A stretch of DNA of 36,909 bases from Clostridia bacterium (GTDB lineage: Bacteria; Bacillota; Clostridia; Christensenellales; UBA3700). Below, in pieces: positions 4,780 through 8,014 of this stretch. A model generated the notes under the pieces. That model searched no databases. It was not told the origin of the DNA and saw only the letters and a list, made by a program, of their open reading frames with translations. The DNA lies in contig JAIDUT010000095.1 of NCBI GenBank assembly GCA_029060065.1, positions 1-36,909 of the forward strand, given 5' to 3'. Position 1 is the first letter of the stretch; every line of letters begins with the position of its first letter. The position numbers and the translations under genes are program-made.

Positions 4780-4785
4780 TTTTGT

Positions 4786-4952
4786 AGTTTACAGAGGCGC
4801 AAAATATAAAAGTATTGGGATAAATGCGACAAGACGTACCCAAGAAAGGATGTTTTGCCGAAATCGTATATCTATCTTGTGCGGTATGCGGTTGGTCGCT
4901 ACGGTGAATAACCCTGCGACTGTCACCTTGGATTAGGTGAAGCGCTTAAACT
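4786..4952 (+). ncRNA. lysine riboswitch (L-box) aptamer
   Basis: Conserved L-box blocks AGAGGCGC, AAAGTA, GCCGAA and GACTGTCACC..GGTGAAGCGC. P1-type closure AGTTTA (4786-4791) with TAAACT (4947-4952). Directly upstream of lysine-pathway genes. Confidence 0.88.
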
Positions 4953-4972
4953 GACTATCAATACGTCATTTT

Positions 4973-5122: not shown

Positions 5123-6142
5123 ATGAAAAAATACAACGTAGCCGTAGTCGGCGCAACAGGAATGGTAGGCAACAAGTTCTTAGAAGTACTTACCGAAAAG
5201 CAATTACCGGTCGAGAATTATTATCTCTTTGCTTCTGCTAAGAGCGCAGGCAAAGTAATCGACTTTATGGGAAAGCCCCACACCGTCATTGAATTGACGG
5301 AAGAAAACGTAAAGGCTCACAAAGTTGACATTGCTCTCTTCTCCGCAGGCGGTTCGACGAGCGCTAAGTTTGCTCCTGTATTCGCTAAGTGCGGCGCAGT
5401 AGTAATCGATAACTCCAGCCAATGGAGAATGGACCCAACCGTTCCGCTCGTAGTACCTGAAGTAAATCCTCAGGATATTGATTGGAACAACGGAATTATC
5501 GCAAATCCAAACTGCTCTACTATTCAAGCAATGGTAGCTCTTAAACCGCTCCACGATAAGTACGGTATCAAGAGAGTTGTGTACAGCACCTATCAAGCAG
5601 TCAGTGGCGCAGGCGTAGCGGGATACAACGACCTACTCGAAGGACTTAAGGCTTTTGTAAACGGCGAAAAATTCGCTACTAAGAAGTTCCCGTACCAAAT
5701 CGCTAACAACTGCTTACCGCATATCGACGTTTTCCTCGACAACGGCTATACCAAGGAAGAGGAAAAGATGATAAAGGAAACCAAAAAGATTTTGGGCGAC
5801 CAATCTATCAAAGTTACCGCTACGACGGTTAGAGTACCTGTACTCAATTCCCACTCGGAATCTATCAACCTTGAGTTTAACAAGCCTTGCACCAAGGAAG
5901 GTATCATCGAGGCTCTTAGAGGTCAAAAAGGTATCGTTATTGTCGATGACGTAGCCAACAACAAGTACCCTATGCCTATCGACACCACGGGTCACGACGA
6001 AGTTTACGTAGGTCGTATCCGTATGGACGATACCGTAGAAAGCGGTTGCAATCTCTGGGTTGTTGCTGACAATATCCGCAAGGGCGCAGCTAGCAATGCA
6101 GTGCAAATTGCTGAGTATATGATACAAAACAATAAAATATAA
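5123..6142 (+). CDS. asd: aspartate-semialdehyde dehydrogenase
   Basis: MKKYNVAVVGATGMVGNKFLEVL, NPNCSTIQAMVALKPLHD. The ATG at 5123 has an upstream AGGAGA; the tracked start at 4979 lies inside the terminator, so I trimmed it. Confidence 0.94.
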   Translation: MKKYNVAVVGATGMVGNKFLEVLTEKQLPVENYYLFASAKSAGKVIDFMGKPHTVIELTEENVKAHKVDIALFSAGGSTSAKFAPVFAKCGAVVIDNSSQWRMDPTVPLVVPEVNPQDIDWNNGIIANPNCSTIQAMVALKPLHDKYGIKRVVYSTYQAVSGAGVAGYNDLLEGLKAFVNGEKFATKKFPYQIANNCLPHIDVFLDNGYTKEEEKMIKETKKILGDQSIKVTATTVRVPVLNSHSESINLEFNKPCTKEGIIEALRGQKGIVIVDDVANNKYPMPIDTTGHDEVYVGRIRMDDTVESGCNLWVVADNIRKGAASNAVQIAEYMIQNNKI

Positions 6143-6183: not shown

Positions 6184-6342
6184 GTTCAACGGAATTTGAG
6201 TAGCGCAAGATTTTCACGTGCAAGAATTTTTTCTAGACGATGAAAACGAACGCAGTAATACTTGCCGTATTACAAGAGAGTTTGAAGAAGTATCGGAAGA
6301 ATTATTGCGTGTAAAATTGTGATACCTCAAATTCCGTTGAAC
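6184..6342. repeat. 159-bp inverted-repeat-bounded intergenic element
   Basis: Perfect 17-bp arms GTTCAACGGAATTTGAG (6184-6200) and CTCAAATTCCGTTGAAC (6326-6342). Inner imperfect arms TTTTCACGTGCAAGAATT / AATTATTGCGTGTAAAA. Apical hairpin GTAATAC-ttgcc-GTATTAC (6255-6273). Confidence 0.85.
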
Positions 6343-6358
6343 AAGGAAAAAGGAAAAT

Positions 6359-7237
6359 ATGTTTGAAGGTACTTTTACTGCGATAATTACCCCATTTACC
6401 AAGACGGGCGTAGATTACGACAGTTTTGCAAAACTTATTGAATATCAAATCAACGGCGGTATCGACGGTATCGTATTTATCGGTACGACGGGCGAACCTG
6501 CTACTATGACTTGCGCTGAAAAAAAGACGCTACGCGACTTTGCTCTAAAGCAAGTCAGCGGTCGCGTACCTGTAATCTTCGGTACTGGATGTAACTGTAC
6601 CCAAACGGCCGTGGAAAACTCTATCGTCGCAAAAGACGAGGGCGCAGACGGAATTTTGGTGGTATCCCCTTACTACAATAAGTGTACGCAAGAAGGTCTA
6701 TACTTGCATTACGAGGCTATTGCCAACAAGTGCGACTTGCCTATGATAATTTACAACGTCCCCGGAAGGACGGGAGTCAATATCCTCCCCGAAACAGTCG
6801 GCAGATTGGCTCGCTCAATCCCATCTATTGTGGGCATAAAAGAAGCGTGCGGTAACTTGGAACAAATCGCCAAGACTGCTCAGGCAATCAAAGGCACAAA
6901 TCTTCAACTTATGAGCGGTGACGACAAACTCGCAGTGGATATAGCAAGACTTGGCGGAACTACCCTTATTTCCGTCGCAAGCAACGCTCTGCCGAAAGAG
7001 TTTACTCAAATTATGAAGTATGCAGGCGCAAAGGAATTTGACAAAGCCGACTTGCTCTTGAAAAAATACGATAAATTCGTTGACCTACTCTTTAGCGAAG
7101 TCAATCCAATTCCTATTAAGTACGCTTGCTCTCTCCTAGGGCTTTGTCAGAATGAGTTAAGACTTCCGCTCACTCCTATGAGCGAAAGCAAAGCGCAAGC
7201 GCTTAAAGCAGAAATGCAAAGTTTGAATATAATATAA
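6359..7237 (+). CDS. dapA: 4-hydroxy-tetrahydrodipicolinate synthase
   Basis: 292 aa. GTTGEPATMT, VVSPYYNKCTQEGLYLHYEAIA, IIYNVPGRTGVN, GIKEACGN. Confidence 0.95.
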   Translation: MFEGTFTAIITPFTKTGVDYDSFAKLIEYQINGGIDGIVFIGTTGEPATMTCAEKKTLRDFALKQVSGRVPVIFGTGCNCTQTAVENSIVAKDEGADGILVVSPYYNKCTQEGLYLHYEAIANKCDLPMIIYNVPGRTGVNILPETVGRLARSIPSIVGIKEACGNLEQIAKTAQAIKGTNLQLMSGDDKLAVDIARLGGTTLISVASNALPKEFTQIMKYAGAKEFDKADLLLKKYDKFVDLLFSEVNPIPIKYACSLLGLCQNELRLPLTPMSESKAQALKAEMQSLNII

Positions 7238-7246
7238 AGGTGTGAT

Positions 7247-8014
7247 ATGACAAAAATTTTGATTTGGGGTATCGGCGGTAAAATGGGAAGAAATATTCTC
7301 GAATGTCTACCCTCTTTTGAAAATGCTCAGTGCGTAGGCGGTGTAGATAAATTTGCCGACCCTACACAGTTTTCCGTACCCGTATTTAAGAGCGGTAAGG
7401 ATATCAACGTCGAAGCCGACGTCATAATCGACTTCTCTCGCCCTGACGCATTGGACGAAATACTTGAATACGCGCTTGCCCATAAAATCGGCATAATGCT
7501 AGCGACTACGGGATATTCTGCAGAGCAACAAGCTCAAATCGATAAGGCAAGCAATAGTATTGCCGTATTCCAATCAAGCAATATGTCACTTGGCGTAAAT
7601 CTTATGATAGAGTTGTGCCGCAAAGCGTCCAACTTCCTCGGCGATAACTTTGAAGTGGAGATAATAGAACAACACCATAATCAAAAGGTTGACGCTCCGT
7701 CTGGTACTGCCCTTTCTATCGCAAAAGCTATCAACGAAGAATTCGACAATTCCAAAGAATTCGTATACGGAAGAAGCGGAAAGAATAGCAAACGTCAAAA
7801 TAAAGAAATCGGTATTCACGCAGTCAGAGGCGGAACTATCGTCGGCAAGCATGACGTACTCTTTATAGGTAAAGACGAAGTCATCACAATTAAGCATGAA
7901 GCGCAATCGAGAATGGTATTCGCTCAAGGCGCTATCCGCGCAGGTCTTTTCCTTGCGAATAAGAAGTCGGGCAAATACTCAATGAAAGAACTTGTCGCTG
8001 AATTTATGGACTAG
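7247..8014 (+). CDS. dapB: 4-hydroxy-tetrahydrodipicolinate reductase
   Basis: 255 aa. N-terminal GIGGKMGRNI, EIIEQHHNQKVDAPSGTAL, HAVRGGTIVGKHDVLF. Confidence 0.95.
   Translation: MTKILIWGIGGKMGRNILECLPSFENAQCVGGVDKFADPTQFSVPVFKSGKDINVEADVIIDFSRPDALDEILEYALAHKIGIMLATTGYSAEQQAQIDKASNSIAVFQSSNMSLGVNLMIELCRKASNFLGDNFEVEIIEQHHNQKVDAPSGTALSIAKAINEEFDNSKEFVYGRSGKNSKRQNKEIGIHAVRGGTIVGKHDVLFIGKDEVITIKHEAQSRMVFAQGAIRAGLFLANKKSGKYSMKELVAEFMD

Follow-up and report, generated by a model that had tools for sequence, protein, structure and literature searches.

Bacterial MITEs and small palindromic repeats such as ERIC, YPAL/RU-2, Correia/NEMIS, RUP and RPE have a length of 100-170 bp, are non-coding, dispersed and mostly intergenic, and can form one stem-loop; YPAL is described as being expressed with upstream genes (PMC2229807). 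The GTAG/CGTC REPs and the RAYT-linked REPINs are located at gene 3' ends, their ends can supply a stop codon, and their hairpins are likely transcribed (PMC3733652). The window, which is the whole stretch of DNA analysed here, is a contig of 36,909 nt from Clostridia bacterium (Christensenellales; UBA3700; GCA_029060065.1, JAIDUT010000095.1), whose genome is G000 in the comparisons. It carries a copy of a family that resembles the bacterial MITEs in being small, non-coding, dispersed and folded into one stem-loop, with YPAL close in size (PMC2229807). In contrast to these MITEs, the family shows no target duplication in the window genus, keeps a strict orientation to stop codons, and shares its apex with elements having unrelated termini. 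Like the REPs, it adjoins gene 3' ends (47 of 80 copies, and 21 of 30 for its type 2). Unlike the REPs, which are 20-40 bp and have a terminal tag, it is one 160-nt hairpin without a GTAG/CGTC end, and unlike the REP/REPIN systems with a cognate Y1 transposase (RAYT), its window host has no Y1_Tnp. The Bacillus cereus group contains bcr1, a mobile repeat of about 155 bp with RNA-like structure. By description only, bcr1 and the window family are similar in size, mobility and RNA-like structure, and differ in host group; the comparison with ERIC, YPAL, Correia, RUP and bcr1 concerns general features. IS1031-type elements of the IS5 family have a TNA target. TNA duplications are also found in two Oscillospiraceae subfamilies having the window-family apex, but no such transposase was found beside the elements, and DDE_Tnp_1 is absent from the window genus.

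The window element lies in a lysine operon on the + strand, which comprises a lysine riboswitch aptamer (4783-4955; Rfam RF00168, 82.2 bits) upstream of asd for aspartate-semialdehyde dehydrogenase (5123-6142; Pfam PF01118, PF02774), dapA for dihydrodipicolinate synthase (6359-7237; PF00701), and dapB for dihydrodipicolinate reductase (7247-8014; PF01113, PF05173). The element is a type 1 copy of 159 nt (6184-6342, with + as the better-folding strand), and starts 41 nt past the asd stop, inside the asd-dapA spacer. Its left terminal arm GTTCAACGGAATTTGAG (6184-6200, +) is the exact reverse complement of its right terminal arm CTCAAATTCCGTTGAAC (6326-6342, +). The right arm precedes the dapA SD here and abuts a stop codon in most other copies; the SD AAGGAAAAAGG (at about 6343-6353) starts immediately 3' of it. 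An earlier note on this DNA had described perfect 17-bp terminal inverted repeats, a right arm ending directly before the dapA SD, and the asd and dapA identities, and all of these hold. It had seen no obvious target-site duplication, and none was found at the asd-dapA locus here either. No terminator-like site was found in the asd-dapA region.

The minimum free energy of the element is -54.6 kcal/mol against -29.3 +/- 3.5 for shuffled sequences (z -7.1), with 0 of 200 shuffles as low, which agrees with the earlier claim that nearly the whole element folds as one arm. By its consensus, the family forms one long hairpin; the window copy makes 49 of the 51 consensus pairs in a constrained fold, whereas the minimum-energy fold of the window copy alone branches otherwise. 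From the consensus and the constrained fold, the inner stem has its 5' side at 6201-6247 and its 3' side at 6280-6325 (both +). The conserved apex GCAG-TAATAC-TTGCC-GTATTA-CAAG (6252-6276, +), whose GCAG...CAAG frame also occurs in other Clostridia, contains an apical hairpin with the stem TAATAC/GTATTA (6256-6272, +). Compared to the family consensus, this hairpin has two altered pairs, each changed on both sides. The 7-bp apical hairpin of the earlier note corresponds to the conserved apex of the family. An Rfam 15 search of the element at gathering and permissive thresholds gave no match.

Seven copies are present in the host genome by BLAST, and 12 of 40 relatives contain copies, every one belonging to the same genus as the window; the family is multi-copy, which the earlier note had named as a sign of mobility. 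A covariance model built from 26 copies has 22 matches in the host genome and up to 50 in one congener. The genus collection comprises 80 distinct copies, all gathered for their similarity to the window, and the stop-codon and other copy counts are not all independent events because some copies are orthologues. Element ends differ from copy to copy. The weaker covariance-model matches include type 2, which is about 164 nt long and has the ends of type 1, a similar apex and a different stem, as well as a 71-nt internally deleted type 1. Remote type 3 forms were found in G008, G011 and G015. Type 1 copies are absent from G002, G006, G007 and G016. The assemblies are MAGs, so the internal deletions, which concern hairpins, could be assembly losses; the ORF calls are heuristic. 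A coding element is rejected, since no frame stays open across copies (none in more than 26 of 79).

Several further repeats accompany or replace the element. In L300 (G013), L298 (G010) and L306 (G005), the gene end orthologous to L006, where G000 carries type 1, is occupied by a fourth type of hairpin whose ends resemble neither type 1 nor type 2. A second repeat, GAGATTTCTCCACTTCGCT..GGTCGAAATGACA, is often directly left of the element (e.g. L005, L010 and L006) and by resemblance only looks like the CGTC/TGTC-type REPs (PMC3733652). A left extension of about 45 nt, AGTTGGCRGTATCGATAGAATAA..CCCCTCT, stands before some copies (L149, L148, L147, L118, L030 and L009) and is tandemly doubled in L149. 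Many type 1 left ends (e.g. L031, L118 and L132) contain a local hairpin CCCCTCTCG-TTTGG-CGAGAAGGG with an A-run to its left, which resembles a terminator when read on the minus strand. This local hairpin has an energy of -7.28 against -6.06 with swapped flanks, a modest gain.

Among 16 congeners with asd, the window genome included, only G000 has the full element in the asd-dapA spacer. The copy in its nearest relative, G014, lacks about 100 nt from the middle and retains both arms, and the other 14 have no element in a spacer of 11-111 nt, compared to 213 nt by the same measure in G000. Four pairs of the terminal arms have changed between G000 and G014, comprising one G-C to A-T double change, two G.T wobbles and one A.C. 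Most likely, the element entered this spacer in the common ancestor of G000 and its closest sampled relative. At the ilvC gene end, G000 and G009 carry type 1, G014, G001, G004 and G013 carry type 2, and seven others have no element; G000 additionally retains a type 2 remnant there. Gene ends in different species thus show element turnover. At L005 (G000), the stop codon (TCA on this strand) and the right arm CCAAATCA share bases, and the right arm has its complement in the left arm GATTTGG; the matching empty site L303 (G001) reads GCAAATCAC. This pair of sites gives a hint that the arms adapt to the target.

Double (compensatory) changes, with at least one sequence altered on both sides, occur in 26 of the 51 consensus pairs, and the fold persists as the sequence of the hairpins drifts. 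The + strand has the lower folding energy in 76 of 80 copies, with a mean of -65.2 against -49.4, and it also folds better in 40 of 41 copies of the other subfamilies. G.U cells outnumber A.C cells on the + strand by 345:81 over the 80 copies, with most of the excess coming from four old wobble pairs. The outer arms have G.U to A.C ratios of 51:29 and 21:22, and the inner stem and apex have 156:6 and 63:1, mostly from old wobble pairs. The inner stem and apex are read here as a strand-specific structure, and the outer arms are possibly kept paired through template switching. Template switching is reported both to give rise to hairpins and to maintain them, with compensatory changes (PMC8794818). 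The earlier note had named a single copy, absence of covariation and unconserved arms as signs against an element; none of the three is found.

An element end was counted as abutting at positions -4 to +5 relative to the stop codon of a facing (minus-strand) ORF of at least 300 nt. The right end lies at a stop codon in 47 of 80 type 1 copies and the left end in 0 of 80, while 0-3 copies qualify when the anchor is displaced by 10-200 nt as a control. In type 2 the right end abuts a stop codon in 21 of 30 copies, and the left end in none. Orientation relative to the abutting gene is uniform in all 68 abutting copies (47:0 for type 1 and 21:0 for type 2). It is puzzling that a nearly symmetric palindrome occurs at stop codons in one orientation only. 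The same element is found at dozens of unrelated genes, and the window copy belongs to a minority class upstream of a + strand gene start.

At least 118 contig stretches, mostly from Clostridia MAGs and some of them from window congeners, contain the exact core GCAGNCGTACTNNNNGTACGNCAAG. In 399 genomes drawn from the phylum, the exact pattern was found in the window genome only, so the superfamily is sporadic or the pattern is too strict. Outside the genus, the core lies at the apex of hairpins of 118-222 nt whose ends are different, for example GAACCTGTC, TACTAATAACC and GTCGTCATAAGT. The helix around the core varies yet pairs: across 67 distinct sequences, 64% of cells are paired, against a mean of 41% (maximum 48%) when the 3' sides are dealt anew, by a statistic that ignores relatedness. 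The GAACCTG and TACTAAT subfamilies, both of Oscillospiraceae and with the apex common to the window family, have identical flanking 3-mers, nearly all TNA, in 16 of 21 copies (shuffled mean 7.8) and 13 of 15 copies (shuffled mean 6.4; the 15 include one without a right flank), respectively. These two subfamilies abut stop codons in 4 of 36 cases against 1-3 in the control and thus show no preference. In G062, the genome of L166, there are 58 forward and 58 reverse matches to the TACTAATAACC end with at most 3 mismatches, lying about 51 to 400 nt apart among the pairs listed, and many are near contig ends. A literature search, which lay outside most subscription journals, found no description of the core or the family. 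An apex with covarying helices that is common to elements having unrelated ends is a second puzzle. It is a speculative and rather doubtful suggestion that these elements form a Clostridia-wide superfamily of mobile hairpins, in which a conserved + strand apex (AAGG-helix-GCAG-hairpin-CAAG-helix-GACGMAG) sits on exchangeable ends, and which in the window genus would be delivered to stop codons in one orientation, implying an undescribed strand-specific or transcript-aware insertion.

None of the 17 genomes searched in the window genus has DDE_Tnp_1, and Y1_Tnp (PF01797) is absent from G000, G003, G004, G009, G013 and G014, all of which carry the element. Target duplications of 2-8 bp in the 80 genus copies are not clearly above chance outside the arms, and the best signals lie inside the arms. 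Three of four genomes with sister elements contain DDE_Tnp_1 genes, and no element ends were found at the expected places near these genes. On these results, Y1 and DDE_Tnp_1 were rejected as movers. An integron attC is also rejected, as the end boxes of the element run in the opposite direction on inspection. At L316, two TACTAATAACC ends enclose a span of 6.1 kb, with TGA at either side; no transposase was recognised in it by eye, and its ORFs resemble solute-binding proteins and a regulator. Most other single TACTAATAACC ends are contig breaks.

The segment probably represents one insertion of a palindromic family that is dispersed, non-coding and non-autonomous, MITE-like and about 160 bp long, and that belongs to the window genus of uncultured gut Clostridia. 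This option of the earlier note gains support because the family is multi-copy, present or absent between relatives, small and non-coding, with inverted ends. Of the features that define a MITE, the 159-bp length, the 17-bp perfect ends, the lack of coding sequence, the dispersal, and the presence or absence at orthologous sites are all found here, while target-site duplication is lacking in the window genus and occurs in sister subfamilies with other ends. It is settled that this is a dispersed palindromic family that has strand polarity and conserved pairing, and that it was inserted here in a single lineage of the genus. The element works like a MITE, but is not filed as a proven one because no target duplication was found in the genus and it has no known partner. 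These two points, with no autonomous partner found among the DDE_Tnp_1 and Y1_Tnp families searched, count against the MITE-like reading, as does the strict stop-codon orientation, which is unlike the expectation for a symmetric MITE and is missing in the TNA subfamilies. An ordinary DDE-type MITE that is inert once inserted, with its arm pairing kept solely by template-switch correction and no RNA role, is a real possibility given the TNA duplications in two sister subfamilies, the near-even ratios of the outer arms, and the compensatory hairpins that template switching reportedly makes and maintains (PMC8794818). It does not readily account for the strand bias of the inner stem and apex, although this stems mostly from old wobble pairs, nor for the apex helix that covaries across subfamilies with unrelated ends, the 47:0 and 21:0 orientation, and the missing target duplication in the window genus.

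Abutment of stop codons in a single orientation, together with the terminator-like local hairpin and A-run of many left ends, would suit a 3'-UTR or terminator module retained for ending or protecting transcripts of the abutted gene. This is somewhat unlikely, as the strand transcribed from the abutting gene folds worse, another terminator-like hairpin persists beyond the element at ilvC, and swapping the flanks weakens the local hairpin only modestly, nor is this hairpin more frequent among copies that abut a stop codon. The module reading is inapplicable to the window copy, as a + strand gene follows it. If a Y1 (HUH) transposase moved the element in single-stranded form, as for REP/IS200-like elements, this would explain the + strand polarity of the fold, the missing target duplication in the window genus, and the gene-end location, REPs being known to adjoin gene 3' ends and to supply stop codons (PMC3733652). 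Such movement is distinctly improbable, since Y1_Tnp is absent from G000 and five congeners despite many copies, the element is a 160-nt single hairpin instead of 20-40-nt tagged units, and the sister subfamilies carry TNA duplications. A regulatory RNA (attenuator or processing site) that arose specifically to serve the asd-dapA junction would fit the location inside a lysine-riboswitch operon and the G000 and G014 arms, which are mostly still paired, their four changed pairs including one double change and two wobbles. It is very unlikely: the spacer has no element in 14 congeners, the same element occurs at dozens of unrelated genes, the region has no terminator-like site, and one A.C mismatch is present in G014. 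The perfect 17-bp inverted ends had also suggested an invertible DNA segment, and this option is hardly credible given the one orientation in 68 of 68 abutting copies and ends that vary between copies.

In the MITE-like reading, the family would spread through an enzyme acting in trans. The apex and inner stem would be a + strand structure, either RNA or single-stranded DNA, recognised by a protein or nuclease, and the complementarity of the outer arms may be partly kept by replication template switching. In the riboswitch-controlled asd-dapA-dapB message, the element would presumably form a long hairpin between cistrons. As this hairpin leaves the dapA SD free, its likeliest effect would be on the processing, stability or decay of the lysine mRNA. 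Regarding the intercistronic RNA structure proposed earlier, the strand-specific fold and the covariation make an RNA-level role plausible, but this role is not specific to asd-dapA.

These results show that the hairpins at gene ends of gut Clostridia make up a large repeat family that undergoes turnover, and are not operon-specific signals. Should the apex prove to be recognised as an RNA or single-stranded DNA structure, this would tie small mobile repeats to a particular factor of the host or of transposition.
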